From assembly GCA_947628915.1 (NCBI GenBank), contig CANRBR010000004.1, forward strand, positions 1-39,351: a DNA stretch of 39,351 nucleotides, written 5' to 3'. A program made the translations under genes and the position numbers. The notes under the pieces were generated by a model. That model was not told where the DNA came from and searched no databases. It saw nothing but the letters and a program-made list of their open reading frames with translations. This document shows positions 512 through 36,848 of the stretch, piece by piece. Positions within the stretch are counted from its first letter, which is position 1. Every line of letters starts with the position of its first letter. The DNA comes from an uncultured Bacilli bacterium. Its GTDB lineage: Bacteria > Bacillota_I > Bacilli_A > RF39 > UBA660.

Positions 512-1687
512 ATGGATGACAAAAAGAAAAAAATAATCATAGGTGTTTTGGTTATTGTGGTCGTAATAGTTCTAGCATGGTTATTATTCTTCAACAAAGG
601 AACAAAATCATATAACGTTACATTTGAAAGCAATGGTGGTACAAATGTAACTGACCAAACAGTTGATAAAGATAAAACTGCTACAGAACCTGAAGACCCA
701 ACAAGAGAAGGATACACATTTAAAGGTTGGTTCCTAGACCCAGAAGGTAAAGAGCCATTTGATTTCGATTCTAAAATTACAGGTGATGTTAAACTATACG
801 CTGTATGGGAGAAAAATGGTGATACAACTGATGATGATAACGAATGTAACTTAACTTGTAAAGATGGAGAGGAACTTGATTCTGAAGCGTGTAAGTGTGT
901 TGTAAAAGAAGATAAAGATGATGAGGAAGAGGATAAACCTGTAGATAGTAAACCTAAAGATGTTGCAGTAACAAGTGTAACTCTTGATAAGAAATCAACA
1001 ACTTTATTAGTTGGAAACACTTTAACAGTTAAAGCAACTGTTAAACCAACAAATGCAACAAACAAAACTGTAACTTGGTCATCAAGTAATTCTAAAGTAG
1101 TTACAGTTGATAAAAATGGTAAAATAACTGCCGTTGGAGTAGGTACTGCTACAGTTACTGCTAAAGCAGGAAATAAAACTGCAACAATAACAATAACAGT
1201 TACTACACAAGATCAGATTAATATGGATAAAGCAAAATCCGTAATAGTAGGAAAAACAATAGATAAAGCAGGTGTTAAAATTAATTTTGCATCAGCTGGA
1301 TGTACTATAGCTAATACTGCTAATAGTGCAAGAGATGGTAAAACAACTATTTCAAATGAAACTGCAACAAAAGTATATAGAGGAGTTAGTGCAAGTACTG
1401 TAAGTTCTACATATACAATAACTTGTGGTTCACTTAAAGACAGTAAAACAGTAAATCATACTGTACCAGCTTCACCATATACATATACATCTAGTACAGT
1501 TATGGGAGTAACAGTTTTAAAAGTTAGTGGAGGAGCTACTAACTACACATTCCAGGAAGCTGGAGGATTAAAATATGTTGCCGATGCTGGTGGTGTACAA
1601 TATTTAACACACGTAAAAGGAACTACATATACAATGGTATTTGATAGTGATGCAAATACAATTTACGAAGTAAAATCTGCAGAATAG
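512..1687 (+). CDS. membrane-anchored surface protein with InlB B-repeat and Big_2-like domain
   Basis: The protein has 391 residues from ATG 512, chosen because AAGGAAAGGTG lies just upstream; the frame stays open back to a TTG at 407, but that start has no ribosome binding site. Residues 8-28 form one membrane helix after a Lys-rich start, so the rest should face outward. Residues ~34-99 are an InlB B-repeat (Listeria-Bacteroides repeat; motif GYTFKGW and ending LYAVW). Next come a Cys-rich patch (~111-129, five Cys), an acidic linker, a Big_2-like Ig fold (~150-230, with VTWSSSNSKVVTVD and GTATVTA) and an unrecognised Thr/Ser-rich C-terminus with two more Cys. There is no LPXTG motif. First gene of a probable operon with the next gene (22-base gap). 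The exact role is unknown; adhesion or envelope structure is an inference. Confidence 0.85.
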   Translation: MDDKKKKIIIGVLVIVVVIVLAWLLFFNKGTKSYNVTFESNGGTNVTDQTVDKDKTATEPEDPTREGYTFKGWFLDPEGKEPFDFDSKITGDVKLYAVWEKNGDTTDDDNECNLTCKDGEELDSEACKCVVKEDKDDEEEDKPVDSKPKDVAVTSVTLDKKSTTLLVGNTLTVKATVKPTNATNKTVTWSSSNSKVVTVDKNGKITAVGVGTATVTAKAGNKTATITITVTTQDQINMDKAKSVIVGKTIDKAGVKINFASAGCTIANTANSARDGKTTISNETATKVYRGVSASTVSSTYTITCGSLKDSKTVNHTVPASPYTYTSSTVMGVTVLKVSGGATNYTFQEAGGLKYVADAGGVQYLTHVKGTTYTMVFDSDANTIYEVKSAE

Positions 1688-1709: not shown

Positions 1710-3938
1710 ATGAAAAAAAAGTTATTAATATCAGCTGCCTGTTTAGGATTAAGTCTTTTTGGACTTTCAAACGTTAGTGCAAAAGAAGTATCTTTAGCAA
1801 CAGGAGAAACTGCAACTGGTAATAACATATATATCGTTGGTTCATGGGTTTTCCAATTAAATAGTTACGGTATAAATGGAAAAGATATTGCTTATGCTAG
1901 TGGACAATATGCTGCACGTACAGGCAAAAAAGATACTCCAGTATATTACATAGTTGGTGGAAGTGTATTAGAGTATGATTCAAAAGGTGCTTCTGCTGTA
2001 CCTAAACAACTAGGAACAGTAGCAGAGGTTTTCCCAGGTTCTAAAATTAATGCATCAGGTTTAAATGGAGAAGAATATGACGATGAATATTTTAAGAAAG
2101 TAGAACCTGAAATAATTAAAGAAGTAGACAAATTGAATGAAAATGCAGATACTGATGGATTTTATTCAGTTACTTATGAAAATGGAACATTAACATTTAA
2201 TATTAAAGACTCATCAAAGAGTTTAGCTGAGTATGGAAGTAAGAGTAGTATTGTTGAATTTGTTAAAAAGATTGTAAGTGAAGAATATGGTTTTGAACAA
2301 ATAAAGTATACACTTGATACTGAAATAACAAAGACAAAAGAAAATCTTAAAACTGATACTAGTGATGCTGAAATAAAAAAATTAGCTAAAGAGGTTTTAG
2401 AATATTTAGCTAAACAAAACGATTCTGAATATAAAACATTAAATTATGCATCAGTAGCTAATCAAGAGATAAGTGCTACTGTTACATATAAAGATAAAAA
2501 TCAAGAAGAATATAATGTAACATACACATTAAAATTTGTTTATGATTTTGAAACTGAAAAAGATAAAGCTCTTAATTCAGTTGCAGAGAAATTAAATGAA
2601 ACAGTACAAGAAGCTCTTAAAGGTACTGAAAAAAATTATGGATTCAAAGGTGTAACATACGAAGATGGAAAAGTAACATTTGATATTCTTGATCCAAGTG
2701 CTAGTCTTTCAACATTTGCAGAAAGTGATATAGTTAGTTTATTTAAAACTAATTATTCAGGAGCTACAAAAATTGTTTACTCTATGAATGGAAAAGAAGC
2801 AAAGACAATTACAATTAATAAAGAATTAGATGAAACTGAAATAAAGAAATATGCTGGTGAAGTTCTTAAATATATGAGTGAAGATGATGATGCAGAAGCC
2901 AAAGATTTATCAGTAGGATCAGTTGCTAATAAGAGTGTAACTGCTATTGTTACTTATGTTGATGGAACTGAAGTTACATATACTTTAAGTTTTACTTTCG
3001 ATGCAGAAACAGTAAAAGACGATGTATTATCTGAATATGCAACTGAATTATCAAAAAAAATTAGTCAATTAGGTTTTAAATCAGTTAAATACGATCCACA
3101 AACAAATGCAGTTTTATTTGAAATTAGCGATCCAAGTAAAAAATTTATAGATAATGTAAGTTTAGTAAAAGAAATTGCAGGAATGTTTGATAAATGGTCA
3201 GCTGGAGCAACTGAAGTAATATATTGGGTAAATGAAGACACTACTGGTGATGGTACAAAAGTTGAATTTGGTGGTGAAGAACCAACTAGTACAACTCAAT
3301 TAGCGTTACAATTATTAACTGCAATGGCAGGTGATGAGGATTTAGATACTAATATGACTATCGGTGCAGTAGCTGGTACAAGTGCAAAAGCTGATTTCTA
3401 CTTTGTAGGTCAAGATAAACCTAACACATATACTGTAGAATTTAAATATGATGCACAAGAAAGTCTTTATGAAACATTAGAAGGTGATGTAACTGGTCTT
3501 AAAGCTTTTGATGCTCAATTAGCTGATAGTGCATATTTTGATAACATTATTTTTGAAAATGGTAAAGCAACATTTACCGTAAAGAAGGATAAAGCAAGTT
3601 CTAAATTTTCTGAATACGGAAAAATGACAGAAGTTCTTGGTATGTTTGATGATGCTGTTGAAGGTGCTACTGAAATAAAATGGACAGTTGATGACAGTAG
3701 CACTAATACTAACACATATACTTTAGGAACTGAAAATTTAGAAAAATTTAATGGTAAAGTAATTGCTAAAGATTTATTATCTGCTATGGCTGGTGGCGAT
3801 AAAGCGAAGAATCCAACAGATATTACATTACAAGATGTTGCAGGTAAAAAAGCAACTGCAGAAATTACTTATAAAATTGGAAAAACTACAAAAACAGTTA
3901 ACTTAGAATTAGAATTCGTAATAGCTGATGGAGAGTAA
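1710..3938 (+). CDS. secreted protein with four ~150-residue tandem repeats
   Basis: 742 residues; AGAGAGG precedes ATG 1710. Residues 1-24 are a typical signal peptide ending VSA, so the mature protein would begin at Lys25. Residues 25-127 are unique, with two YIVG-type strands. From ~128 to the end are four diverged repeats (~128-281, 282-432, 433-580, 583-742). Each begins with G-(K/T)-x-(T/L)-F-x-(I/V)-x-D-(P/S)-S, as in GKVTFDILDPS at 320-330, followed by a helix, a GATEI-like strand, a second helix (EVLKYM or LLTAMAG), a (V/A)(A/G)(N/G)K-x-(V/A)TA strand and a closing YTLSFTFD-like strand. I recognise no named family. Related modules sit in the three large proteins downstream, so it probably belongs with them. 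There is no anchor motif and there are almost no Cys. The product is likely released or held non-covalently. Confidence 0.85.
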   Translation: MKKKLLISAACLGLSLFGLSNVSAKEVSLATGETATGNNIYIVGSWVFQLNSYGINGKDIAYASGQYAARTGKKDTPVYYIVGGSVLEYDSKGASAVPKQLGTVAEVFPGSKINASGLNGEEYDDEYFKKVEPEIIKEVDKLNENADTDGFYSVTYENGTLTFNIKDSSKSLAEYGSKSSIVEFVKKIVSEEYGFEQIKYTLDTEITKTKENLKTDTSDAEIKKLAKEVLEYLAKQNDSEYKTLNYASVANQEISATVTYKDKNQEEYNVTYTLKFVYDFETEKDKALNSVAEKLNETVQEALKGTEKNYGFKGVTYEDGKVTFDILDPSASLSTFAESDIVSLFKTNYSGATKIVYSMNGKEAKTITINKELDETEIKKYAGEVLKYMSEDDDAEAKDLSVGSVANKSVTAIVTYVDGTEVTYTLSFTFDAETVKDDVLSEYATELSKKISQLGFKSVKYDPQTNAVLFEISDPSKKFIDNVSLVKEIAGMFDKWSAGATEVIYWVNEDTTGDGTKVEFGGEEPTSTTQLALQLLTAMAGDEDLDTNMTIGAVAGTSAKADFYFVGQDKPNTYTVEFKYDAQESLYETLEGDVTGLKAFDAQLADSAYFDNIIFENGKATFTVKKDKASSKFSEYGKMTEVLGMFDDAVEGATEIKWTVDDSSTNTNTYTLGTENLEKFNGKVIAKDLLSAMAGGDKAKNPTDITLQDVAGKKATAEITYKIGKTTKTVNLELEFVIADGE
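2091..3935 (+). repeat. four tandem protein-level repeats of ~450 bp
   Basis: The repeat units are visible in translation rather than in DNA. The conserved start is seen at residues 159-168, 319-329, 466-476 and 618-627 of the encoded protein, and the conserved end is a TYTLxFxxD-like strand. DNA identity is low, so the duplications are old. Confidence 0.75.
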
Positions 3939-3956
3939 TACAGTTATGATATATAG

Positions 3957-3986
3957 TTAAAACGCTTTCTAGTGAAAGCGTTTTAA
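3957..3986. terminator. 13-bp perfect inverted repeat, probable terminator
   Basis: TTAAAACGCTTTC (3957-3969), loop TAGT, GAAAGCGTTTTAA (3974-3986): a perfect 13-bp stem between the second and third envelope genes. The T tract lies within the stem arm, so it may end transcription in both directions. One strand also reads TGAAAGCGTTTTAA, which differs from the CcpA cre consensus mainly at the final C, so an operator role is possible. Confidence 0.55.
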
Positions 3987-4011
3987 TGTATATTTATGAA
4001 GGTGGGGGATT

Positions 4012-6462
4012 ATGAAAGAAAAAAATAAGAAAAAAATAACAATAATTGTTGCTTTAGTTATTATAGTATTAGTTATAGTGATATTCACTTTATTATTAAA
4101 TAAACCTAAAGGATATACTGTTAAACTAATGGTTGATGATGAAACTTATTTAGAACTTGATAATGTAAGTAATGGTAAAAAAATCGGATCTTCTAAAGAG
4201 CCTAAAAAAGAAGGATATACATTTTTAGGATGGTATCTAAATGACAAAAAAGTTGATTCTGATACTAAAATAAGTGAAGATTTAACACTAGAAGCTAGAT
4301 TTGAAATAAATACATATACTGTTACTTTTAAATCAGATGAAATAAAAGATGAAGTAGATGTAGTATATAGTGAAAAAGTAGAGAAACCTAAAGAACCTGC
4401 TAAGAAAGGTTATATATTTTTGGGGTGGTATTTAGGTGATGAAAAGTTTGATTTTGATACTAAAATTACTAAAGATATAACATTAGAAGCTAAATGGACA
4501 AAGAATACTATCTCTAATTACACAGTAGAACACTATCTGATGGATTTAAATGGTAATTATAGTAAAACACCAACATATAAAGAGAAATTTAGTGGTAAAA
4601 TAAATAGTACAGTAACTCCTAATACTAAAACTTATAAGGGATTTACTTCTCCAGATGTTGAAACAGTAGAAATAGAGGATGGAGATAAAACTGTAGTTAA
4701 ATATTATTACTCTAGAAATAAATATACATTAACTTTAAAAGGTGATGAAAACATTATATCTTTATCTGGAAACGGAACCTATTATTATGGTACTAAAGTA
4801 AATATAAAGGCTAATTTAAAGAATGGATATACTATAAATAGTTGGAGTAATAAAGAAACTAAAGAATCATTTGAATATTTAGTTGGTGATAATGAAACTT
4901 TAAGTGTTACTACAAAATTAATAAACTATAATATATCTTATGTAGCAAAATATAATGATAAAATTTTAAATAATAATAACAATAAGAATCCAATAACATA
5001 TACAATTAAAGATTCAATAGAACTTATTTCACCTGAAATTGAAGGATATACTTTTGAATATTGGAAAGTTAATGGTAAAAAGATAGATGGTAATGTTATT
5101 GAGATAGGTACTTACGGTAATTTAAATATAGAAGCTATATATTCAGTTAACACTTACACCGTTACATTTGATATGGAAGATGGAACAAATAAAACTTTAA
5201 GTGTTAATTATGGTGAATTAGTTAATGATGTAACTTTAGATGAAGAATATATACCTATAAAAAAAGGTTATAGATTTATAGGTTGGAGTCTAGATAAAGA
5301 AACTTTGTATAATTTTGATATTCCAATGGGAGCTTCTGATATAACACTTTATCCTTTATGGGAAACTATAAACTATAAAATAAGTTATAATTTAAAAGAT
5401 GATGAGACTTGCAGTAAGTGTAAAGAATCTTATTATACAACTGAAAAATTTGTATCTTTACCAATACCAAGAAAAAAAGGATATGTATTTGGTGGTTGGA
5501 AGATTAATGATTCATCTGAAATTATAAATAATATTAAAAAAGGTACTTATGGAGATTTAACATTAGAAGCTGTTTGGTATAAAGAAGTTACTTTGGAATA
5601 TATTGACAGTGTACTATTAACTGATATAGTGGGTATACAATCTTATGTTAAGGATAATGCTGTATCTGTTGGAATAATAGATTATGACAAATATTTTAAT
5701 GGAAATAATACTTTAATTGATTTATCTAATAATATTAAAACTTTATTGGATTTAGAGGAAATAGATAAGCTAGAAGTAGTATATAATAATAAACCTTATA
5801 TATTAAATAGTAATGTTGAATCATTAAAGACAGTTGTTTCTGCAATTTTAGGAAAAGAAACAATTGATGACACTGATAAATATTCAGATTTATTTAATAA
5901 AAAATTGAACGTTAAAATTTATCTAAAGGAAGATATAGCTAGAACAACTGATAATAAACCAATTTTAAGTTATAGTTTAAGTCTTGAACAGTGGTCTGAA
6001 ATTTCTAAAGAAACTTTTAAAAATTTAGGTACTACCACAACTAATTATATAAATTCTCATAAGAAGGAAAAATATGAGGTTGTTGATGATGGAAATGGTA
6101 ATTTAATATTTAAATATTCTGATCCAAATAATGATGTTTTTTCTACTATGATGGGTGCTGGTCTTAAAACTGCAATGCAGACATTCTTAGGAAATGAAAA
6201 TATTGGTTATGTAATAGTTACTTTTAGAAATATGGATCCTGTAAAAGTAACTTATGATGATATAAAAGAAAATAAATTCTGGGATTTTGGGTTTCAATTA
6301 CTTGATACTTTTGAAGCAGCAGTTGGAAAAGATGCCTTTGATTTAATAAATAGTGACTTAGATGATTTAAAAGCAACAATAAAAGTATATGCTCATGACG
6401 GTAGATATTTTGGAAATGAAATAGTAGACGAATACACTATTAGTTTCAAATCTCAAAAATAA
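4012..6462 (+). CDS. InlB-repeat/MucBP-like membrane-anchored surface protein, 816 aa
   Basis: ATG 4012 follows AAGGTGGGGG. Residues 8-29 are a membrane helix after a Lys-rich start. Outside it come two InlB B-repeats (~34-98 and 101-163; GYTFLGWYL and GYIFLGWYL), a MucBP-like unit (~169-234, starting YTVEHYLMDL and ending VVKYYYSRNKY), a divergent InlB unit (~236-303, GTYYYGTKVNIKA), and three further InlB units to ~523, one with a CSKC pair. Residues ~544-658 and ~686-814 are two copies of a module like the repeat of the secreted protein upstream; the second contains GNLIFKYSDPN (696-706). There is no LPXTG motif and no second helix. It is the smallest of three tandem paralogues. A role in adhesion or envelope building is an inference. 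Confidence 0.85.
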   Translation: MKEKNKKKITIIVALVIIVLVIVIFTLLLNKPKGYTVKLMVDDETYLELDNVSNGKKIGSSKEPKKEGYTFLGWYLNDKKVDSDTKISEDLTLEARFEINTYTVTFKSDEIKDEVDVVYSEKVEKPKEPAKKGYIFLGWYLGDEKFDFDTKITKDITLEAKWTKNTISNYTVEHYLMDLNGNYSKTPTYKEKFSGKINSTVTPNTKTYKGFTSPDVETVEIEDGDKTVVKYYYSRNKYTLTLKGDENIISLSGNGTYYYGTKVNIKANLKNGYTINSWSNKETKESFEYLVGDNETLSVTTKLINYNISYVAKYNDKILNNNNNKNPITYTIKDSIELISPEIEGYTFEYWKVNGKKIDGNVIEIGTYGNLNIEAIYSVNTYTVTFDMEDGTNKTLSVNYGELVNDVTLDEEYIPIKKGYRFIGWSLDKETLYNFDIPMGASDITLYPLWETINYKISYNLKDDETCSKCKESYYTTEKFVSLPIPRKKGYVFGGWKINDSSEIINNIKKGTYGDLTLEAVWYKEVTLEYIDSVLLTDIVGIQSYVKDNAVSVGIIDYDKYFNGNNTLIDLSNNIKTLLDLEEIDKLEVVYNNKPYILNSNVESLKTVVSAILGKETIDDTDKYSDLFNKKLNVKIYLKEDIARTTDNKPILSYSLSLEQWSEISKETFKNLGTTTTNYINSHKKEKYEVVDDGNGNLIFKYSDPNNDVFSTMMGAGLKTAMQTFLGNENIGYVIVTFRNMDPVKVTYDDIKENKFWDFGFQLLDTFEAAVGKDAFDLINSDLDDLKATIKVYAHDGRYFGNEIVDEYTISFKSQK

Positions 6463-6488
6463 TTTTTAATAAATTTTCATGTAATTTT

Positions 6489-6537
6489 TAACAAATTGTT
6501 TAAAAATATAGACAATTTGTTAATTTTATATTATAAT
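6489..6537 (+). promoter_or_regulatory. promoter overlapped by an 11-bp inverted repeat
   Basis: -35 TAGACA (6509-6514), 17-base spacer, -10 TATAAT (6532-6537), before the gene at 6574. The inverted repeat TAACAAATTGT (6489-6499) / ACAATTTGTTA (6512-6522) has a 12-base loop and its right arm covers the -35 box and the start of the spacer. It could end transcription from the gene at 4012 or act as an operator; there is no clean T-run. Confidence 0.6.
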
Positions 6538-6573
6538 AGATAATGATTTTGAATGGGGTAGGAGGTATTTCTT

Positions 6574-9500
6574 ATGAAGAAAAGTAGTAATTCTAATAAG
6601 AAAAAATATATTGTAGGCATTGTTATTGTCTTTGTAATTGTTTTAATTATTTTATTACTTTTATTACGTCACGAGAAACTTGAAATAGAGTTTGAAGTTG
6701 ACGGTGAACTTTATCAAACTCAAAAACTAAATAAAGGGGATAAATTAGTTGATATAAAAGAACCAAAAAAGGAAGGTTATACTTTTGATGGTTGGTATTT
6801 AAATGGTAAAGAGTTTGACTTTAATACTAAGATTTCTGAGGGTATGGTTTTAGAAGCTAGGTTTACTAAAAATAAATACAAAGTAAATATTGTTTATGGT
6901 AATGTTAAAGATGATACTATACTTGATATAGAACATGATAGTAAAGTAGAAGAACCCAAAAATCCAATTAAAGAAGATTATACTTTTTTAGGATGGTATG
7001 TCGGTGATGAAAAATATGATTTTAATACTAAGGTTACTAGTGATTTAACTATTACTGCTAAGTGGAAAAAAACTAAAACTACATATACTGTTGAACACTT
7101 CCTAATGGACTTAGATGGTAAATATAGTAAAAAAGCAAATGAAACTGAAGTTTTAAAAGGTACTATTGGTGAAACGGTAAAACCTAGTGTTAAAAGCATT
7201 AAAGGTTTCACTAGTCCTAGTGTTAAAGTAGTTAATAAACTAGAAGATGGATTAGTAATTAAATATTATTATGAGAGAAACAAATATAGTTTAAAAATAA
7301 ACGGAGATAAAGGTATTTTAAATACCGTTGGTAGTGGAACATATTATTATGGAGATACTGTCGATATTAGAGCTGTTGTTAAAAATGGATACGTTATAGA
7401 CAGTTGGTCAAATGGATTGAAGGATACACATTTTACTTACAAAATAAGTGATAAATCTGAAACTATTAATGTAAGTACAGCAGTAAAAACATATAAGTTA
7501 AAATATAACTTAAATGGTGGGGTTTTAGATAATAAGATAACTACTTATACAGTTGAAGATGATGATTTTGAGTTAGGTATTCCAACTAAAGTTGGATACA
7601 CATTTAAGTGTTGGAAAGTTAATGGTAAGGTATCTAATGGTATTATATCTAAAGGTACATATGGAGATTTAGAAGTAGAAGCTGTTTTTGAGGCTAATAC
7701 TGATACTATATATACTGTTGAGTATTATTTAATGGATTTAGATGGTGAGAATTATACATTAGATGATACTATTAAATTAAAAGGTACAACAGATACTTTA
7801 GTAACTCCAAAGGTTAAAGAATACACTGGATTTACTAGTCCTAGTGGTATCGAAGCTAATATTGATGGTGATGGTACTACAATAGTTAAATATTATTATA
7901 AAAGAAATAAATATAATTTAAATATTTCATTTATTAATGAATTAGATGGAAATGATAAAGAAGGTATTAAAACTTTATCAAAAAGTGGTTCCTATTATTA
8001 TGGAAAAAGTGTAGATATAAATATTGAACTATTAGATGGATTTGATTTTATTAAGTGGTCAAATGGTGACGAGAGTAAGAATATAACATATATCGTTACA
8101 GCAGATGAAAATCAAACATTGACTGCTACTATTAAAAGACACAGTTATACTGTTACATTTGATAGTGATAATGGCAGTGAGGTTCCTAACAGCGAAGTGC
8201 TTTTCGGTAAAAATATAATAAAACCTTCAAATCCTACTAGAGATGGTTATGATTTTGATGGTTGGTATAAAGATGAAACATTTACTGATGAATGGAAATT
8301 TGATGAATATGTAATGCCAAATAGTGATATTACTTTATATGCTAAATGGATAATTCATAAAGATACAGTATCATTTAATGCAAATGGTGGAAGATTTAGT
8401 GATGGTAAAAATGAGCATTCTGTTACAAATCAAAACCAAGGATCTAAAATAGATAAACCTGCTGAGCCTAAAAAAGAAGGATATACTTTTAATGGTTGGT
8501 ATAAAGATAAAACATTTACTGACGAATGGGATTTTGATAGTGATGTTATGCCAAGTGCAGCTTTAACACTCTATGCTAAGTGGACACCAATTACTTATAA
8601 AGTTCATTTTGATGGAAATAATAATACATCTGGCAATATGGATGATATTACTTGTACTTATGATAAAGATTGTACTTTAACTAATAATAAATTCGTTAAA
8701 GAGTACACTGTTACTTACGATGAAAATATTAGTACTGTTTCATCTATATCTCTTGATGATCAAACAGTTAAATATAAATTTGCAGGATGGAAAAATGGTA
8801 ATGAAACTTATATAGATGGTTATACTGTTAAAAATTTAACTAATGTTGATAATGAAGTTGTTAATTTAACTGCAAATTGGGAAGTTGATGCAACTACTAC
8901 GAAACTAAAAGAAACAACAAGAACTGGCTATGATTTTAGTGGTTGGTATGATGATAAATTAAAAATAAGTGATTTAAGTAATATATCAAAGGATTTAAAT
9001 TTAAAAGCTGAATGGACACCAATTACTTATACAATTATCTTTGATGGTAATGGTGGTAAAGATTCAAAAGGTATAGAAGTTTTTAGAATAGAGGCAACAT
9101 ATGATCAAACAGTTAAAGCTTTAGATAGTTTTACCAATACTTTAATTTTAACATATGATTTTGATAATGATGAAGAAAATAAGATAGAAAGTGTAACTGC
9201 TACATTTAATGGTTGGAAGTTAGATGATAAAACATTTAAAAAAGGCGATGATTTATTAAATTTAACTTCAACTAAAAATGATGAAATTACTTTAATAGCT
9301 GAGTGGACATATCCAGAGATTAAAATTAGTGAAGAAGTACCAACAAAAGAAAGTAAAGAAAAATACTATACTTATGAATTTAAGAATTTTACTGATGGTA
9401 ATAAAACTTATAAAGTAAATGATAATATAACTTTAAATAAAAATATTACTTTAACTGCTCAATATATAAAAGTAATTGATACTGATAAGTATATTAATGA

Positions 9501-10422
9501 AAAAATGAAAACAGAAGGAAGATCGGATTTTACAGTTTCTGGTAGTGATAAAAATTATACAATTAATATAAATGAAGTTAATAGTCCTATTATAATTAAC
9601 AGTGATATTGAAAAAATCAGTAAAATTTTAAAAAGTGAAGATGTTATTAGTATTGAGCTTGAATCAGAATCTGAAAACTTAGTAACTATTAATGATTCAA
9701 GTGAATTAGAAACTAAAATAGATGAATTTTTAAAACAAATAACTTCAGAAAAAACTGTTTCAAACAAATACCTAGGATCTTTATATAAGAAAAAGATATC
9801 TATTACTGTTAACTTTAATCCGGATTTAGTTAAAACAAGTGATTCAAAAATTTCTGCAACATATACAATAAATTATGCTTATAGTGGTGATAAAATAATT
9901 ACACAAAATAAGTTGTATGATATTGCGGATTCTGGAATTAAACAGGTAAATGAAAGTGTCAATAAACCATATAGAATAAAAAGATTTGGTAATAAGGTAT
10001 ATGTTACATATAAAGAAGGCACAGAATCTAAAGCTATTATAGATGTTATTTTAGATGGTGGGACAGGACTTAACAACTGTATGAATGCTTACTTTAATAA
10101 TATAGAAGCTAGCACAGCAAAAATTTCTGTTTACTCCGATGAAAATAGTGCTAAAGACATAAATATTGAACCAATAGGAAGCGTAGACAAAACCAAGATG
10201 ACTAATTTATCTGACTTAATATATTTCGCTAAGGATGCTTTAAAAGCACTAGGTTTAGAAGAATTAGGATTAGGTGGTGTTACAAACGCCACAACTATTG
10301 GAAGACCTATGTATATGAGAATAGATTTAGACGATAATCCTGAATATATATTTGAAGATGGGGTTGATAATATCTTCTATGTAGAAGTAATTAAACCTGA
10401 TGAATTTAAAAACTTGAAATGA
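6574..10422 (+). CDS. InlB-repeat/MucBP-like membrane-anchored surface protein, 1282 aa
   Basis: ATG 6574 sits 8 bases after AGGAGG, with its own promoter. After a Lys-rich start, residues ~11-32 form one membrane helix. The ectodomain opens like its neighbours (two InlB B-repeats, a MucBP-like unit, a divergent GTYYYGDTVDIRA unit) and then adds a second MucBP/divergent pair and a run of more InlB units. Two of these are classical, with DEWKFD or DEWDFD and ending LYAKW. Residues ~982-1104 and ~1129-1278 look like the paired C-terminal module, but are more diverged than in the other paralogues. It ends with TGA. No sorting signal and no enzyme motif is visible. The expansion relative to the 816-residue paralogue is mostly extra InlB units, so length variation by repeat gain is likely. 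Confidence 0.85.
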   Translation: MKKSSNSNKKKYIVGIVIVFVIVLIILLLLLRHEKLEIEFEVDGELYQTQKLNKGDKLVDIKEPKKEGYTFDGWYLNGKEFDFNTKISEGMVLEARFTKNKYKVNIVYGNVKDDTILDIEHDSKVEEPKNPIKEDYTFLGWYVGDEKYDFNTKVTSDLTITAKWKKTKTTYTVEHFLMDLDGKYSKKANETEVLKGTIGETVKPSVKSIKGFTSPSVKVVNKLEDGLVIKYYYERNKYSLKINGDKGILNTVGSGTYYYGDTVDIRAVVKNGYVIDSWSNGLKDTHFTYKISDKSETINVSTAVKTYKLKYNLNGGVLDNKITTYTVEDDDFELGIPTKVGYTFKCWKVNGKVSNGIISKGTYGDLEVEAVFEANTDTIYTVEYYLMDLDGENYTLDDTIKLKGTTDTLVTPKVKEYTGFTSPSGIEANIDGDGTTIVKYYYKRNKYNLNISFINELDGNDKEGIKTLSKSGSYYYGKSVDINIELLDGFDFIKWSNGDESKNITYIVTADENQTLTATIKRHSYTVTFDSDNGSEVPNSEVLFGKNIIKPSNPTRDGYDFDGWYKDETFTDEWKFDEYVMPNSDITLYAKWIIHKDTVSFNANGGRFSDGKNEHSVTNQNQGSKIDKPAEPKKEGYTFNGWYKDKTFTDEWDFDSDVMPSAALTLYAKWTPITYKVHFDGNNNTSGNMDDITCTYDKDCTLTNNKFVKEYTVTYDENISTVSSISLDDQTVKYKFAGWKNGNETYIDGYTVKNLTNVDNEVVNLTANWEVDATTTKLKETTRTGYDFSGWYDDKLKISDLSNISKDLNLKAEWTPITYTIIFDGNGGKDSKGIEVFRIEATYDQTVKALDSFTNTLILTYDFDNDEENKIESVTATFNGWKLDDKTFKKGDDLLNLTSTKNDEITLIAEWTYPEIKISEEVPTKESKEKYYTYEFKNFTDGNKTYKVNDNITLNKNITLTAQYIKVIDTDKYINEKMKTEGRSDFTVSGSDKNYTININEVNSPIIINSDIEKISKILKSEDVISIELESESENLVTINDSSELETKIDEFLKQITSEKTVSNKYLGSLYKKKISITVNFNPDLVKTSDSKISATYTINYAYSGDKIITQNKLYDIADSGIKQVNESVNKPYRIKRFGNKVYVTYKEGTESKAIIDVILDGGTGLNNCMNAYFNNIEASTAKISVYSDENSAKDINIEPIGSVDKTKMTNLSDLIYFAKDALKALGLEELGLGGVTNATTIGRPMYMRIDLDDNPEYIFEDGVDNIFYVEVIKPDEFKNLK

Positions 10423-10439
10423 TAGGGGAAATATAGATT

Positions 10440-13400
10440 ATGAAAAATAATAAAACAAATAAGAAAAAAATAATAATTGGGATAATTATTTTCGCAGTAT
10501 TAGTTGCTGTTATATTATTGTCAATGTTATCTTGCGAGAAGGAATATAAAGTTCAACTTAAAGTTGATGGTAATATTTACCTAACACAAAAACTTCATAA
10601 AGGTGATACTTTAAAAAATATTGATATTCCAACTAAAGAAGGTTATACATTTATAGGTTGGTATGTAGATGGAAAAGAATTTAAAATAGATGAACCTATA
10701 GATGAAAACATTACTTTAGAAGCTAAATTTACTAAAAATAGATATACTATAGTAATTGATGCAGGTAATGGGAGTAGTGTTTTAACTGAAGAAATAGAAT
10801 ATAAAGGTAAAATTGAAAAACCTAAAACACCTAAAAGAACAGGCTATAAATTCATAGGTTGGTATAACGGTGATGAAGAGTTTGACTTTGATACTGAAGT
10901 AACTGGAAATATTAATATTACAGCAAAATGGGAAAAGATTAAAAAGACTAATGAAAGTTCAAAAACTGATGATAATTCTGTAATTAGTCAAAAATATGTT
11001 GTACAACACTTCCTAATGGATACAAATGGTAAATATCCAGAAGTTCCAAATATTGAAGAAGTTAAAGAAGCTAAGATGGATACTAAGGTTACCCCTAGCG
11101 TAAAAAACATTATAGGATTTATAAGTCCAACTGAAGAAGAAATAACTATTTCTAAGGATGAAGTTGTTGTTAAATATTATTATGAAAGAAAACAATATGA
11201 ATTAAAATTAGTTGGAGACGAAGGAATAAATGAAACTAATGGTAGTGGTACTTACTATTATCAAGCGCTAGTTGATGTAAGTGTTACTTTAAATAATGGC
11301 TATGAATTTGTAAAATGGTCTAATGGTGAGAAAAAATCAACATTTACATATGAGATTGGCTTAGATAATCAAGAACTTAGTGCAACAACAAAGTTAATCA
11401 ATTATTCAATTGCTTATGAATTAAACGGAGGAAAATCAGAAAAAGATTTAAAAGAGTCTTATGATATTAAAACTAAAATTGACTTAGGGACTCCTAGTAA
11501 AGTTGGTTATGATTTTAAGAGTTGGAAAGTAAATGGTGAAGAAATCGAAGGTACTGTAATAGAACCAAATAATTATTATGAAGATTTGAAAATAGAAGCT
11601 ATTTTTGAAGCGAGAACTGATACTCCATATAAAGTAGAACTTTATTTTATGAATACAAAAGGTGAATATTCATCAGCAACAGAAATTATGCTTAAGGAAG
11701 GAACCACTGATGAAATTCCTAAATATGCTCCAGAAAATAAAATAGGTTTCTTAGAACCAAAATTAAAAGAAAATGGTGAAGAAATACCTGTACCTACTAT
11801 TAATGGTGATGGTACTACAGTTTTAAAATATTACTATGAAAGAAAACAATATACACTAGAAATTAATAAATCTATAGGTGTTGATACACTTACTTATGAA
11901 ACAAAAGACAAATATTACTTTGAAGAGGAAATAAGTATAAATGTAACTGCTAAAGATGGATACCATTTATTAAGTAATGAAGATAATTCTAAAGTAGAAG
12001 AAGATAACTTTACATATAAAATAATAGATGGAGATAATGTTATAAATGTCGAAAGTGAAGGACATACTTTTAAAGTAAATTATCATAATGAAGATGGAAC
12101 TCTTTCTAGCATGGAATCAAGTACATTTACTTATGGTGATTCTTATAGTTTAAGTAATAATACAATTACTAAAGATGACTATACTTTAACTATTAAAGAT
12201 TATGATGGTAAAGGTAAAGACAAGACTGTAACTATAAAAAATACATTTAAAGGTTGGGCAACTGATACAAATAGTAAAAAGGTTGTATATAATGAAAATG
12301 ATACATTAAATAATTTCATACCTGAAAAATGTAATGAAGAACTTAATCTATATCCAGTATTTGAATCTGATTCTTATGAATTAACAGTTCCTAGTCAAAA
12401 TGGATATACTTTTAAAGGATTTAAGGTAAACGGAAAAGACATTCCAAAAGAAGATTATAATAATTATTTAATTAGTGAAGATAATGAAGAAATTACTACT
12501 GAATGGGAAATAATTAATTATAATATTTCATTTGATTTATCTGGCGTAGAAGGTGTTGAATGCACTGATTGCAATGAAACTACATACACAATAGAAGAAG
12601 AAAAAGAATTACCTGTTCCAACAAAAGATGGATATACATTTAATGGTTGGGTTGATTCAAAAGGTGAATTGATTAAAAAAGTACCTGAAGGAACATTTGG
12701 AGATTTAAATTTATCACTTGATGAATCTAGCTTTACTGCAAACACTAATACTCCATATAAAGTAGAACTTTATTATATGGATACAAAAGGTAATTATCCA
12801 GATAAAGCTGACACTACTATTGATGAATATGGAACAACTGATTCTCAAATAGATTATGTCCCTGTTGAAAAGGACAAAGGATTTAAAAAATCAGTTATTA
12901 AAGAAAGCGCTGATGGTGAGGAAATAAAAGAAGTTCCAATTATAAAAGGTGACGGATCTACTGTTGTAAAATATTACTATGAAAGAAAGCAATTTACTTT
13001 AAAAGTAACTACTACTGTAGGTATTAAAGATTTTACTGTTAATGATGAATCTTATGATAAGGATGAAACATATTATTATGAAGAAAAATTAAATATTAAA
13101 GTGAATGCTAAAGACGGATATCATATAATAAGTGATGAATTATTAGAATCAGAACTTACTAATAATGATAAAACTGAAACGTTTATTTATACTATAGATG
13201 ATGATACAAACGAGATTACTTTAAATAGTGCAGGAAATACATTTACAGTTAAATATCATGATGACAAAGGTGAAAATGAAAAAGTAGAAGAAAAAACTTA
13301 TAAAGAGGGAATTACTTTAGATGAAATTATTTATGAGAAAGAACCTTATACTTTAACTATTAAACACGTAGTTCCAACAGATGAAGAAAGTAAAAAAGAA

Positions 13401-15899
13401 ATTGAATTCAACAACGAATTTGTTGGTTGGTCAACTAACAAAGGTTCAAGTGATATTACATATAATGAAAAGGATTCTATTATCCCATCAAAAGATGGAG
13501 AAGAAATTAATTTATATGCTGTATTTAAAACAGAAAAGAAAACTCTAGAAAAATTAATTGATACAGAAGATTATTATTTTAAAGATTTTGAAGATTCTGG
13601 CATTGATATAGAAGAAAGAAAACTTACTAATTTTACTATTTCTTCAGATAAAGAAATTACTGCTCATTGGTTAGAAGTTATTTCATTAGAAGAATGGGAT
13701 AGCATGGTCATGGAAGCAGCTGATACAAGTATGTTTAATTCTAATGTTTTAAACGAAAGCAATATCACTGGATATATTAAAGGATTTACTACAGGATATG
13801 CTTTTTCAGCAAAGTTATTATGGCTTACAAATCAGTTGTTAGCTTTGCAAACAAATAGTGATTATATTGAAAAAATTGGATTACAATTTGGTGTAAATGG
13901 CACTTTAATTGAAACATCAGTAGACTCAAAAGGTAGAGTTAGTTGGGATTCCCGATTAATTACTCAGACTGGAAATTTTGTAAGAAATGAGATTGACGGC
14001 GATGAAATTAAAATTGTTGTTTACTTGGATAATGAAAAAGTTATTGCTAAGGATAGAGATGAAAACTTAGATTATACGATTCATATTAAAACAAAAACAA
14101 AAAAGGCAAATATTGATAGTAGCGGTACAGAGGCTTTGGGTGTGTTTAATAAAACAAAACCTGATCTAGATATTGAATCAAGAGATAAAGGTACAATTAC
14201 ATTTAGATATAGCGATCCAAATATGACTACTTATGATGCAATTTTCCAAATGGGTGTAAATACCGCAATTCATAAATTCTTTGAAAACGAATTTGTTAAA
14301 AATGTTGAAGTAACATTTGATAATGGTAAACAAGAGACATATGATAGATCAAATTTAAGCGCTTTAACACTTGATTTTAACTCTGATATTTCTTCATTTG
14401 ATGGTGGAAATTACAGTTATCCAGTATATAAGTTATATGCTGATGGTAATGATGTACAAAGATATAAACTAAAAGTAAAAGTTAATTTATATGTGGACAC
14501 AGATAAAACTATGCCAACAGAATATGAGATTTTATTTGCTCCTGTTGAAAAAATTACATATACAGTAAATTACCAAAAAAACGGAACAGGAGATAGCAAG
14601 GAAGTCACTTGTACAGTCGGTGAAGAATGTGAATTAACAGATATCGTAAACGTTGTAACATATTATAATAATTTAAATGACGATGATAATGGACCTAAAT
14701 ATTTAATACCAGATTTAAAAACTTGTACAATAGATGGTCAAGATTGTATGGATAAGATACAATTAAAAGATAACAAATATGTAATTGTGAAAGATTTAAC
14801 TACTGAAAAAAATAAGGCAATTACTTTAAAACTTACATTTGATGAAGAAAAATTACCATATATTTCAAAAACAGTTCGCGGAGATAATTACATCTTCGGT
14901 GGTTGGAGTACTAAAAATAGTACTGATGAATTAGATAGTATTATTGGATATCAATTAAAACCTAATGGATTTGTTGATGAATATACTTATGCAGAACCTG
15001 GCACTGCTCATAATTATGATGGTAATACTACTTTATATGCTGTATGGTGGAAAAAACCTTATATTGATTCTATTTCTTTTGGATTATATTCAAATTTAGC
15101 CGCAACTCAAAATGGTGCTCCTTCAAAATTATCTGAATTTAAAGTGAATGAAAAAAGTAAAAAGGCATTTTACATAACAATTCCAGAAAATGAAGATATG
15201 TTAGTATATGTTCCAAGTTTAATTGTTAAAACTACTTCAAAAATAAAATTAAATCCATATGCAAAAGAAAATGTTCCTTCAAGTGACTATGCTGATTTAT
15301 GGATAAATAGTTTAGATGGTAATATTCATATTGGTGACTTTGCAGTGTTTAATCATGAAGTTGGTTTACCATTTAGTAGTGAAGACAATATTACATGGAA
15401 AGCGCAAAGTGATACACTATTTAGTGCTGCATATGGATTGGTAGAGGAAACTAAAGCATTTTATGGAAAAAATTTCTATAGTACATTAAAGAATGGTATT
15501 ATAGTTGATTTATTTGGAGAAGAACCTATTCCTATTACAAATGGAAAAGAATTAGGCATTGTCGATAAGTTCGGATGTAATGGACTTGCTTGTACTCCAC
15601 ATTATAGTTCTATGGCAAGTGAACATATTAATGGAAAAACATATATATTCTTTGCAACTGATGAAAATATGAATAATATGCATACCATTACATATAAAAT
15701 TGGTGAAGAAACAGTTTGCACATTAAAAGTTCCAAATGACTCACCAATTCCAAATATTGCACCAATAGAAAGTGGTTATGCTGAACTTGATTGTAATGGT
15801 ACGAAATATACTGTTACAAATTGGGGAGGTTACAATTTTGATAATGCATATGCAACTAGTGATATAACAATTACTGGTCAAGGTCAGAAAATTAATTAA
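10440..15899 (+). CDS. giant InlB-repeat/MucBP-like surface protein, 1819 aa
   Basis: ATG 10440 follows a weak AGGGG, 17 bases after the previous stop, so it is likely co-transcribed. Residues ~11-30 form the membrane helix. Then come InlB B-repeats, three MucBP-like units (each ending VxKYYYERKQ), divergent InlB units, and a CTDC pair near 705. The paired module lies at ~1105-1225 and ~1240-1368, the second copy with GTITFRYSDPN from Gly1251. Unlike its paralogues the protein continues: another InlB-like unit with CTIDGQDC, then ~280 unrecognised residues (from ~1540) with four Cys and many aromatic residues. The last helix residues read MLSC, but the positions before the Cys do not fit a lipobox. 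A terminator follows the stop. It is the longest gene of the window and the distal member of the cluster. Confidence 0.85.
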   Translation: MKNNKTNKKKIIIGIIIFAVLVAVILLSMLSCEKEYKVQLKVDGNIYLTQKLHKGDTLKNIDIPTKEGYTFIGWYVDGKEFKIDEPIDENITLEAKFTKNRYTIVIDAGNGSSVLTEEIEYKGKIEKPKTPKRTGYKFIGWYNGDEEFDFDTEVTGNINITAKWEKIKKTNESSKTDDNSVISQKYVVQHFLMDTNGKYPEVPNIEEVKEAKMDTKVTPSVKNIIGFISPTEEEITISKDEVVVKYYYERKQYELKLVGDEGINETNGSGTYYYQALVDVSVTLNNGYEFVKWSNGEKKSTFTYEIGLDNQELSATTKLINYSIAYELNGGKSEKDLKESYDIKTKIDLGTPSKVGYDFKSWKVNGEEIEGTVIEPNNYYEDLKIEAIFEARTDTPYKVELYFMNTKGEYSSATEIMLKEGTTDEIPKYAPENKIGFLEPKLKENGEEIPVPTINGDGTTVLKYYYERKQYTLEINKSIGVDTLTYETKDKYYFEEEISINVTAKDGYHLLSNEDNSKVEEDNFTYKIIDGDNVINVESEGHTFKVNYHNEDGTLSSMESSTFTYGDSYSLSNNTITKDDYTLTIKDYDGKGKDKTVTIKNTFKGWATDTNSKKVVYNENDTLNNFIPEKCNEELNLYPVFESDSYELTVPSQNGYTFKGFKVNGKDIPKEDYNNYLISEDNEEITTEWEIINYNISFDLSGVEGVECTDCNETTYTIEEEKELPVPTKDGYTFNGWVDSKGELIKKVPEGTFGDLNLSLDESSFTANTNTPYKVELYYMDTKGNYPDKADTTIDEYGTTDSQIDYVPVEKDKGFKKSVIKESADGEEIKEVPIIKGDGSTVVKYYYERKQFTLKVTTTVGIKDFTVNDESYDKDETYYYEEKLNIKVNAKDGYHIISDELLESELTNNDKTETFIYTIDDDTNEITLNSAGNTFTVKYHDDKGENEKVEEKTYKEGITLDEIIYEKEPYTLTIKHVVPTDEESKKEIEFNNEFVGWSTNKGSSDITYNEKDSIIPSKDGEEINLYAVFKTEKKTLEKLIDTEDYYFKDFEDSGIDIEERKLTNFTISSDKEITAHWLEVISLEEWDSMVMEAADTSMFNSNVLNESNITGYIKGFTTGYAFSAKLLWLTNQLLALQTNSDYIEKIGLQFGVNGTLIETSVDSKGRVSWDSRLITQTGNFVRNEIDGDEIKIVVYLDNEKVIAKDRDENLDYTIHIKTKTKKANIDSSGTEALGVFNKTKPDLDIESRDKGTITFRYSDPNMTTYDAIFQMGVNTAIHKFFENEFVKNVEVTFDNGKQETYDRSNLSALTLDFNSDISSFDGGNYSYPVYKLYADGNDVQRYKLKVKVNLYVDTDKTMPTEYEILFAPVEKITYTVNYQKNGTGDSKEVTCTVGEECELTDIVNVVTYYNNLNDDDNGPKYLIPDLKTCTIDGQDCMDKIQLKDNKYVIVKDLTTEKNKAITLKLTFDEEKLPYISKTVRGDNYIFGGWSTKNSTDELDSIIGYQLKPNGFVDEYTYAEPGTAHNYDGNTTLYAVWWKKPYIDSISFGLYSNLAATQNGAPSKLSEFKVNEKSKKAFYITIPENEDMLVYVPSLIVKTTSKIKLNPYAKENVPSSDYADLWINSLDGNIHIGDFAVFNHEVGLPFSSEDNITWKAQSDTLFSAAYGLVEETKAFYGKNFYSTLKNGIIVDLFGEEPIPITNGKELGIVDKFGCNGLACTPHYSSMASEHINGKTYIFFATDENMNNMHTITYKIGEETVCTLKVPNDSPIPNIAPIESGYAELDCNGTKYTVTNWGGYNFDNAYATSDITITGQGQKIN

Positions 15900-16114: not shown

Positions 16115-16954
16115 ATGATAAAAGAAAAAGAACAATTTATCTCACTAAAATTCGATTTACTTTTTAAAAAAGTATTTGGAAGTGAAGAAGACTTAATTCC
16201 AATAAAGAAGTTACTTAAAGAAGTACTAGGAATAGTACCAAAGGATGTAAAGATATTAAATAGTGAACTTGTAGGTAGACCATATAAAGATAGAGATGTA
16301 AGAGTAGATTTAGTAGTAGAGTTAGAAGACTTAACAAAAATAAATGTAGAAGTAAATACCGATGTAACGCAAACTCTAATAGAAAGAAATGTATATTATA
16401 TGTGTAGGAATATGAGTATGGACTTAGCTCCAAAAAGTATATTAGGAAAAATAAATAGACACATACAGATAAACTTAGATTATAGTGGTAAACATGAAAA
16501 GTCAATAGAAAGATATGCATTATATGAAGAAGAGACACATAAAAAACTAACAGATATGATAGAAATAATAAGAATAGATATTCCATATTTCAAGAAAGAA
16601 TGTTATAATAAAGACATAAAGAAGTTGGATAGTAAGACCAAATTCTTAGGGCTCTTTGGAGCAGAGAGTATAGAAGAAGTAAGAAAGTTATGTAATGGTG
16701 ATAAAATAATGGAAGATATAGGAAAGAGAATAGATAAATATAATGATGATGAAGATGTAATAGGTTTATACCACTATAAATATGTAGAAGAGGAAGTAAA
16801 GCAAGAACAGTTAGAAGAGGCAACACAAAAAGGTATTGAACAAGAAAAAAAATCTACAGCAAGAAATCTACTAAAAGAAAATATGGATGTAAACTTTATA
16901 TCAAAAGTAACGGGATTAAGTCTAAAAGAAATTGAAAAGTTAAAGGGAGATTAA
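16115..16954 (+). CDS. Rpn family PD-(D/E)XK nuclease (transposase-like)
   Basis: 279 residues from ATG 16115 after AAAAGGAGGAA. The N-terminus (KFDLLFKKVFG, then LIPIKKLLKEVL) and the core strands VRVDLVVEL (Asp) and INVEVN (Glu-x-Asn) match the Rpn/YhgA/PDDEXK_2 family of recombination-promoting nucleases, where the motif is D...E-x-(Q/K/N). The C-terminus has the usual helical tail (EKKSTARNLLKEN...ISKVTGLSLKEIEKL). Family members cut DNA in vitro and promote RecA-independent recombination; they are common as multicopy genes in gut Bacillota. The gene stands alone between its own promoter and terminator. The strong purine bias of the coding strand makes long open frames on the opposite strand, which are not genes. 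No terminal inverted repeats of an element were seen. Confidence 0.85.
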   Translation: MIKEKEQFISLKFDLLFKKVFGSEEDLIPIKKLLKEVLGIVPKDVKILNSELVGRPYKDRDVRVDLVVELEDLTKINVEVNTDVTQTLIERNVYYMCRNMSMDLAPKSILGKINRHIQINLDYSGKHEKSIERYALYEEETHKKLTDMIEIIRIDIPYFKKECYNKDIKKLDSKTKFLGLFGAESIEEVRKLCNGDKIMEDIGKRIDKYNDDEDVIGLYHYKYVEEEVKQEQLEEATQKGIEQEKKSTARNLLKENMDVNFISKVTGLSLKEIEKLKGD

Positions 16955-31073: not shown

Positions 31074-31140
31074 ATGTACTAGGAAACTAGTATATAGAAA
31101 TGATAGTGAATGCAAGAAATTGCTTATCATTTCTTTTTTT
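31074..31140 (+). ncRNA. two GAAA-capped hairpins with a T-run: small RNA or spoIIP leader attenuator
   Basis: TACTAG-GAAA-CTAGTA (core 31077-31092, extended by four-plus pairs outward) is followed by a long hairpin: GAAATGATA (31097-31105) with TATCATTTC (31125-31133), containing GCAA-GAAA-TTGC (31112-31123), and then a T-run to 31140. Both loops are GNRA tetraloops. A start near 31077 would give a 60-65-base RNA consisting only of these stems, ending 48 bases before spoIIP. There is no frame in it. Confidence 0.4.
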
Positions 31141-31187
31141 CGACATTTATTAACTACACTCTATTATATATTAATGGTGGTGATTTA

Positions 31188-32147
31188 ATGAAAAAAAGAT
31201 TCAAAGCAAAAAAGAAATTTAAATATAGACTAGTTATAACACCTTTTTTAATAATAATTTGTATATATTTAATAAATTATTGTCTAGGTAAAGTAAGAAT
31301 ATCACTATCAAATGAAAATATAATAGAGCTTGTATTTAATTCAGAGAATAAATATTCAATTGATAATGTAGAAAATAAAAGTGTTTATAATGAAATCATA
31401 GGTTATTTGAAAGAAAATATATTTAACAACCCAGTTGAGATGCTTAAAAGTGAATTAGATTTAAACTATAATAATGATAAAACTAATAATAATGAGATTA
31501 TAAGTTTTACATATAAAGAACCTAATAAAAATAGAATATACATATATAGTTCGCATCAAGGTGAGACATATTCTATGGAATACTTAGAAAACCATAATAT
31601 AGTGCCTGATATTCTTATGGCATCACATATGTTAGAAGAAAAGTTGGAAAATTTAGGTATAAATACTATTGTAGAAGAAAGCGATATACTATCTTACATG
31701 AAAGAGAATAACTTAAATCATGCAGGTAGTTACATAGCAAGTCGTAAATTTTTAACTGAAGCAATGGATAAATATAAAGATATAGAACTATTTATAGACC
31801 TCCACCGTGATGCGGCAACCCATAAAGCAACATACACAAACATAGATGGTAAAGACTGTGCGAAAGTATTATTCGTAATAGGACTTGAGAATGAAAACTA
31901 TCAAAAGAATTTGGATATAGTAACTAAAATAAACAACATAATCGATGAAAAATATCCAACACTCTCACGAGGTATTATGAAAAAACAAGGGGTTGGAGTT
32001 AACGGTGTTTACAATCAAGATTTAAAAGAAAATGTAATACTAATTGAACTAGGTGGAAATGAAAATAATATAGATGAAATTAATAATACAACAGATATAA
32101 TTGCTAAAGTACTAGAGGAATATTTAAATGAAAAAGAAGAAAAATAA
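31188..32147 (+). CDS. spoIIP: stage II sporulation protein P (engulfment peptidoglycan hydrolase)
   Basis: 319 residues from ATG 31188, after GGTGGTGAT; the frame is open further upstream but runs through the terminator hairpin there. SpoIIP cuts septal and lateral peptidoglycan (amidase and endopeptidase) in the mother cell during engulfment, with SpoIID and SpoIIM. Residues ~14-33 are the membrane anchor. The SpoIIP domain runs from ~105 to the end: IYIYSSHQGETY (His123, Glu126 in place of the common HTHTTE-type string), PDILMASHMLEEKLENLGI, SYIASRKFL, LFIDLHRDAA (His206) and VILIELGGNENN (Glu287), the expected zinc ligands. It is shorter than the Bacillus protein (~400) because the region after the anchor is reduced. 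It overlaps the next gene by 20 bases. Confidence 0.93.
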   Translation: MKKRFKAKKKFKYRLVITPFLIIICIYLINYCLGKVRISLSNENIIELVFNSENKYSIDNVENKSVYNEIIGYLKENIFNNPVEMLKSELDLNYNNDKTNNNEIISFTYKEPNKNRIYIYSSHQGETYSMEYLENHNIVPDILMASHMLEEKLENLGINTIVEESDILSYMKENNLNHAGSYIASRKFLTEAMDKYKDIELFIDLHRDAATHKATYTNIDGKDCAKVLFVIGLENENYQKNLDIVTKINNIIDEKYPTLSRGIMKKQGVGVNGVYNQDLKENVILIELGGNENNIDEINNTTDIIAKVLEEYLNEKEEK

Positions 32148-35888: not shown

Positions 35889-36848
35889 ATGAAATGTGAT
35901 ATTTGTAACTGTACAGATACTTATATAAAAGAACACACACATGAATACATTATTAAAGGTAAAAAAATAGAATTTATATCTAAAAGAAGATTTTGTAAAA
36001 ATTGTAATAATTTAGTATATGATTCTAAACTAGATAATATAGCATCTAAAAAAGCAATAGATATATATAATAAGAAATATGGTATATCTAAGGATAGTAT
36101 TATTGAACTTAGAAAAAAATATAATCTGTCACAAGACCTTTTTTCTAAAATAATAGGCTGTGCGAAAAAAACTTTGGTTTCATATGAAAATGGTAATTCT
36201 ATTCCTAACGATAATTACCTTATAATACTTAGAAGTTTAATTAACAAGCCAGAAGTTATATATACACTTATAGAATCTAATAAAGATAAGTTTACAGATA
36301 TAGAGTATAATAAAATAAAAGATAGACTAGATTACGATACAATTTTATTTAATGATGAAAAATTTACTCCTTCAAAATATAACGGATATACTAAACTAAA
36401 TATGGATAAAGTATATAATATGATTCTTTGTTTTGCTGAATCAAAAGTACTAAAAACTAAATTATTAAAAGAAATGTTTTATGCAGACTTTATTAATTAT
36501 AAAAATACGGGTGCTTCTATAACTGGTCTTGAATATGCAAAACTTAATTATGGACCAGTACCAAACAATTATGAAGAAATAATATTTAAATGTTCACTTA
36601 AGGATTTAATTAATTATGATGTCGAATTTAAAAATGATTTTGAAAGCCATTTTATTGAGAAAAAAGCAAAACTAAATAAAAAAATTTTTTCAGAAGAAGA
36701 ATATAATTCAATATGTAAGGTTAAAAAATTCTTTCAAAATTATAATTCTAGTGATATAGTTAAATATTCACATAAAGAAAAAGCTTTTACTGATACAAAA
36801 TATTTTAATAATATAAGTTATGATTATGCTTTTGATATAGATATTTAA
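35889..36848 (+). CDS. MqsA-like zinc finger-HTH-Panacea antitoxin
   Basis: 319 residues from ATG 35889 after GAGGTGAG. Three parts are visible. Residues 1-45 are an MqsA-like zinc-binding unit (Cys3, Cys6, Cys36, Cys39). Residues ~68-118 are a Xre-type helix-turn-helix (IIELRKKYNLSQDLFSKIIG, then TLVSYENGNSIP). Residues ~172-310 match the Panacea/DUF4065/SocA domain (KLLKEMFYADFINYKNTG, then ITGLEYAKLNYGPVPNNY). Panacea domains neutralise very different toxins. Here the MqsA zinc finger and the Panacea domain occur in one chain opposite an MqsR-like toxin. It is likely the repressor of its own promoter, through the palindrome at 35498. A terminator follows its stop. Confidence 0.85.
   Translation: MKCDICNCTDTYIKEHTHEYIIKGKKIEFISKRRFCKNCNNLVYDSKLDNIASKKAIDIYNKKYGISKDSIIELRKKYNLSQDLFSKIIGCAKKTLVSYENGNSIPNDNYLIILRSLINKPEVIYTLIESNKDKFTDIEYNKIKDRLDYDTILFNDEKFTPSKYNGYTKLNMDKVYNMILCFAESKVLKTKLLKEMFYADFINYKNTGASITGLEYAKLNYGPVPNNYEEIIFKCSLKDLINYDVEFKNDFESHFIEKKAKLNKKIFSEEEYNSICKVKKFFQNYNSSDIVKYSHKEKAFTDTKYFNNISYDYAFDIDI

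Follow-up and report, generated by a model that had tools for sequence, protein, structure and literature searches.

A domain family shared by secreted and anchored InlB-repeat proteins, and its conserved gene cassette, in uncultured gut bacteria

Among the described surface-protein systems, SlpA, an S-layer protein from C. difficile (LMW S-layer, PF12211), contains a domain D1 that is composed of a four-stranded sheet with two helices and into which D2 is inserted (PMC5601205), and the D1 domains contribute contacts to the lattice (PMC8881574). The S-layer assembly domains of Bacilli have been described as β-sandwiches (PMC8881574). Further comparable systems are Sap of Bacillus anthracis, a secreted surface protein with related domains in tandem, the Ig-like families (BIg21, PF05688, and Big_2), which are also tandem extracellular domains, and the InlB B-repeat proteins (Flg_new, PF09479, and Flg_new_2, PF18998). 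In the present study, a stretch of 39,351 nucleotides from an uncultured Bacilli bacterium (the window) was analysed, in which a domain of ~145 residues (the module) occurs in a secreted protein, SP, and as a pair, A and B, in three giant proteins, G816, G1282 and G1819; the module defines a new domain family that is solidly established and whose gene arrangement is conserved. The same InlB B-repeats form the stalks of the three giants, but the named InlB-repeat protein families found here have neither the A+B pair at the far end nor an SP partner. Unlike SlpA, SP and the giants contain no CWB2 domains and show no sequence match to it, and their modules stand in tandem and also on anchored stalks. 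SP resembles Sap in its tandem related domains, and Sap is among the lower-ranking Foldseek matches; however, the module is predicted to be α/β and SP has no SLH domain. The Ig-like families are similar in use, with an E value of 0.005 between BIg21 and SP that is below the cut-off, whereas each predicted module contains three long helices, in contrast to an Ig sandwich.

The window corresponds to contig C4 in a genome assembly of ~1.06 Mb and 90 contigs; its G+C content is 26.6%, and the five relevant genes (S407, SP, G816, G1282 and G1819) all lie on the + strand (Table 1). Since the genome encodes penicillin-binding transpeptidases and sortases, the organism most probably is Gram-positive and has a cell wall. 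In each giant, an N-terminal hydrophobic segment, interpreted as a membrane anchor that is not cleaved off, is followed by a series of InlB repeats, which score 125–241 bits with Pfam Flg_new against a cut-off of 27, and then by the A+B pair. The InlB B-repeats are the only Pfam matches in the giants, SP remains below every family cut-off, and SLH, CWB2 and LysM are absent from the Pfam matches of the five proteins. The SP of the window has a pI of 4.5, no Cys and no LPXTG; the pI of the SP-type proteins (n = 11) ranges from 4.2 to 5.7 with 0–9 Cys, traits that are common to many other surface proteins. For S407, the ATG at 512, which is preceded by a Shine–Dalgarno sequence, is a likelier start than the TTG at 407, and its C-terminal ~160 residues form a conserved unnamed domain with 56% identity between genera (window 1199–1687; L008:3239–3718).

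Table 1. Genes, modules and hairpin of the cassette, in window coordinates, with E values from the profiles named.
Feature	Position	Strand	Evidence
S407, membrane-anchored, one InlB repeat + Big_2 + conserved C-terminal domain	512..1687	+	Pfam; first cassette gene
SP, secreted, 742 aa: signal peptide, N-terminal ~105-residue domain, four modules, no anchor	1710..3938	+	
SP1 module, SP residues 132-284	2103..2561	+	3.9e-35, profile without window rows
SP2 module, SP residues 285-434	2562..3011	+	1.2e-40, profile without window rows; AlphaFold2
SP3 module, SP residues 435-582	3012..3455	+	2.0e-27, profile without window rows; AlphaFold2
SP4 module, SP residues 583-742	3456..3935	+	4.3e-24, profile without window rows
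Terminator-like hairpin, SP–G816 junction; probable partial terminator	3956..3987	+	folding
G816 (816 aa), N-terminal membrane segment, InlB repeats, C-terminal A+B pair	4012..6462	+	
G816 A module, residues 528-668	5593..6015	+	8.9e-7, profile without giants; 6.2e-15, without window rows
G816 B module, residues 669-816	6016..6459	+	4.6e-10, profile without giants; 4.2e-43, without window rows; AlphaFold2
G1282 (1282 aa), membrane segment, InlB repeats, C-terminal A+B pair	6574..10422	+	
G1282 A module, residues 966-1112	9469..9909	+	3.6e-14, profile without giants; 5.2e-29, without window rows
G1282 B module, residues 1113-1282	9910..10419	+	2.6e-23, profile without window rows
G1819 (1819 aa), membrane segment, InlB repeats, A+B pair, then ~450 more residues	10440..15899	+	
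G1819 A module (divergent), residues 1080-1222	13677..14105	+	collinear with A modules of two orthologues
G1819 B module, residues 1223-1370	14106..14549	+	3.4e-4, profile without giants; 6.8e-32, without window rows

A preliminary description of the window had proposed ten copies of a shared module without a known name, four in SP and one pair per giant, recognized by a short motif. The count of ten was borne out by profile searches with decoys and, for G1819 A, by orthology, and the module indeed matches no named domain in Pfam or NCBIfam, nor any PDB entry by sequence; the profile searches of the PDB gave matches at chance level only, for example a Takeout-like protein at E 0.37, and no paper on the module was found in the published literature. 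The motif, [VLIA]xFx[IYV]xD[PS][SN], occurs five times in the five proteins, compared with 0.01 expected in shuffles, and starts at residues 159, 320 and 467 of SP, 697 of the 816-aa protein and 1251 of the 1819-aa protein; the reading frames and sites had been placed correctly, with numbering that was off by about one. As a shared pattern it is far above chance, but it is present in only 8/70 modules across genomes, and because it marks only some copies the defining feature is the whole module.

A profile built from the SP copies of the window alone found nothing significant in the giants, and relatives were therefore gathered; wider profiles subsequently linked the two. Profile–profile comparison with 4–7 rows per side gave no more than a hint of a link (E 0.001 between SP and B, across 118 columns). 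Whole-genome searches within the same bacterial family yielded SP-type and giant-type proteins in other genera, together with bridging proteins (L059, L060 and L122) whose tandem copies are matched in the same register by the SP, A and B profiles. Three separately iterated seeds, from the SP copies, giant A and giant B, converged on 139, 136 and 141 shared modules of 140–150. A profile grown from 121 modules in 55 proteins, with no anchored giant included, finds four of the giant copies, G816 A, G816 B, G1282 A and G1819 B, at E values of 3e-4 to 4e-14, compared with 0.16 for the best of ~1,500 reversed or shuffled decoys. Class profiles lacking all window rows recover 9/10 copies; the exception is G1819 A, for which the A+B stretch is collinear with two orthologues at 54–57% identity overall, and lower within A. 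With a broad 60-row profile one decoy reached 5e-5, so that weaker values from that profile were not relied on, and an initial pair alignment of 34 rows was discarded for its many gaps in favour of a later one. That the ten copies constitute one homologous domain family is well supported by these comparisons and close to certain. The opposing explanation, that the modules of SP and the giants are unrelated and alike only superficially, could appeal to the failure of the first profile to reach any giant, but it is contradicted by the profile grown without giants, by the wider profiles, which link SP and giants clear of decoys, and by the in-register matches in bridging proteins such as L059 and L122, and we regard it as highly improbable.

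With a 51-row profile, the module was detected in 43/288 genomes drawn from the order, all from one family and covering 21/102 genera, and in a phylum-wide draw of 295 genomes it was detected only in the window's own genome; as judged from these searches, its range does not extend beyond this one bacterial family. The records of the module-bearing relatives are titled uncultured Bacilli, with some Clostridia. The number of copies per protein ranges from 1 to 8, and a secreted protein of 1,605 aa, encoded on a different contig of the window's own genome, adds one more copy. In a relative (G382:C9), a frame of 24,816 aa was set aside, as the stretch analysed opens with masked sequence, through which a frame runs without stops. 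In the tree, all A modules form one clade (98/95) and all B modules another (96/97), so that the A+B pair probably arose once; the SP modules of the cassettes stand mostly apart from both, with SP positions 1–4 largely kept between genomes. The A, B and SP-type modules represent three separate old lineages, a division that is new here. We infer that different positions do different jobs. The positions have not been levelled out, except in L099, where SP copies 2 and 3 (L099:10874–11737) are nearly identical, which indicates that they were duplicated recently; the copies in other genomes are older.

A second unnamed domain (YVYIIGDYAFTSxxxLxTxDIMLA), ~105 residues that follow the signal peptide, occurs at the N-termini of L059, L060, L063 and L070–L124 and at residues 25–131 of SP; it characterizes a large secreted family of which nearly all members carry the module. 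The search with this N-terminal domain (YIIGxYAFTS type) gave 54 loci in named genomes, again with the module in nearly all of the proteins; 52/54 of these loci come from one metagenome series, Lapin (read as rabbit), and two from BRZ, which may reflect host restriction or sampling bias.

The preliminary description expected the same fold in SP and the giants, and named differing folds, or a strong match to an SCP or Ig family, as grounds for abandoning the idea. Two AlphaFold2 models, whose input alignments share no protein, were compared by the order of their elements: SP2–SP3 (18 SP-type rows; pLDDT 84.8, pTM 0.79) and G816 A+B (8 giant rows; pLDDT 75.7, pTM 0.65, with B mostly at 82–92 and A weaker, with stretches <50). 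In SP2, SP3 and G816 B alike, the prediction begins with a long helix and two strands, continues with a second helix and two more strands, and closes with a third helix, a short helix and a last pair of strands, so that the independent models agree with the expectation at the level of predicted element order. Neither of the two families was found: SCP/CAP is absent from the Pfam and NCBIfam matches, no Ig-like family reached its cut-off in the module (BIg21, the best, at 17.8 bits versus 27.4), and the α/β order predicted in both models does not fit an all-β Ig sandwich. The search against solved structures returned nothing at E 0.001 or better, the best Foldseek E value being 0.02. After re-alignment with SP, SlpA (SLPL domain D1) and Cwp2 of C. 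difficile take most of the top places (9f8f_A, Z 5.6; 7acz_A, 5.4; 3cvz_A, 5.2; then 7acx, 7acy and 7acv), and the best SlpA entry shows an order-preserving two-layer α/β likeness over 86 residues at 3.3 Å, at a Z below the level that excludes chance; with the giant model SlpA recurs lower in the list, at Z 3.8. Because a Z of <8 may be chance and the SlpA/Cwp2 entries represent one family, the resemblance to SlpA D1 is a lead only. No SlpA chain appeared in the PDB profile searches, and PF12211 gave no match in the window's own genome, in a search whose control matched nowhere either. Other folds in the list, namely kinesin, polymerase beta, Ig receptors and, at Z 5.3, the BAM-complex chain 9hjm_H, rank level with SlpA or lower and have no biological connection to the module.

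A gene for an SP-type protein, with a signal peptide and 1 to 5 modules but no anchor, precedes a same-strand gene for an anchored InlB-repeat protein in 11 loci; the loci were chosen for holding the module, so the count is not that of a random sample. The anchored neighbour carries one or two modules in 9/11 loci, and none was seen in two, one of them cut by a contig end. The order in L146 (S407, SP, giant, giant) is that of the window, an S407 homologue precedes SP in five genomes and lies directly upstream of it in L008, L146, L057/L153 and L154, and in the smallest cassette, L154, a 260-aa SP with one module adjoins a 461-aa anchored pair. This cassette of SP followed by one or more anchored proteins is kept across genera and is new here.

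The junction between SP and the anchored gene contains a stem–loop with T after or in the stem end in 11/11 loci by folding, at 1.5 to 6.4 standard deviations below shuffles. A strict hairpin pattern matches 7/11 junctions, compared with 12/63 other same-strand gaps, which places similar hairpins behind other nearby genes also, and with 0.02/11 in shuffles. Where the strict pattern matches, the end of the hairpin lies 21–48 nt from the next start codon, which leaves little room for a separate promoter; the simplest reading is therefore a partial terminator that would give much SP and little giant. A terminator-like hairpin in all 11 junctions is new here and predicts SP in excess. Before G1282, a strong promoter-like site at 6509–6537 (11 of 12) lies beside an inverted repeat, AACAAATTGT...ACAATTTGTT, in the gap 6463–6573, around which promoter matches are no commoner than in shuffles; G1282 may have its own promoter at this site, and G1282–G1819 may perhaps be a second regulated unit.

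The cassette and the hairpin fit an assembly of SP with the giants, for which copies of the module could, as the preliminary description suggested, bind each other across proteins. In the arrangement that we propose, the cell would have a non-covalent surface coat with SP as its abundant, major subunit. The mRNA hairpin would stop much of the transcription before the giants and so leave SP in excess, and the fewer giants would reach through the wall with their InlB stalks and hold the coat on the cell by docking of their A+B heads to the SP modules. Such docking is quite possible, at somewhat less than an even chance. The more inclusive claim of a two-part coat of a new kind, with an outer layer that is built from the module, has no known wall-binding domain and is tied to the membrane through InlB-repeat stalks with heads of the same module, the ratio of coat to stalk being set by the mRNA hairpin, seems rather unlikely. 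The main rival to docking is that the modules belong to separate adhesins, either as structural spacers or as binding sites for host or fibre ligands; SP and the giants would then never meet, and the cassette would reflect common regulation only. This rival is almost as probable as docking. It accords with the InlB repeats or Pectate_lyase_5 adhesive domain in some module proteins, with the variation in copy number and with the many large secreted proteins that carry the module but, in the stretch examined, have no module-bearing giant neighbour (L071, L072, L103, L118 and most of L073–L124), from which it follows that docking to giants cannot be the sole use of the module. However, an SP without an anchor would be lost from the cell unless it were held, and the order of SP and then anchor is kept in all 11 loci, down to the smallest cassette.

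A regular S-layer would be a stronger form of the coat idea, in which SP would make a two-dimensional lattice by contacts between modules, as in the D1 domains of C. difficile SlpA. The leading places of SlpA and Cwp2 with SP, their recurrence with the giant, the lattice contacts of D1 (PMC8881574) and the acidic, Cys-free composition of SP are consistent with it; it rests on a weak resemblance to D1 in predicted models, with a Z of at most 5.6, a best Foldseek E of 0.02, no sequence link and no CWB2 or SLH domain, and D1 (PMC5601205) has fewer elements than the module. We consider a regular lattice unlikely. If docking to the A+B heads is true, the coat would be held on the cell without the sortase or wall-binding domains looked for here. 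The family provides a definable domain for gut bacteria whose surfaces have hardly been studied; with it, giant unannotated reading frames become readable as a system of stalk, head and secreted partner.

Immediately 3' of the cassette, a PD-(D/E)XK nuclease family transposase is encoded at window 16115–16954. An MqsA-like and a Panacea antitoxin domain are joined in a single fusion protein at 35889–36848, and the sporulation genes for SpoIIP and SpoIVB are present at 31110–32147 and 36934–37923 of this ~1.06-Mb genome's window.
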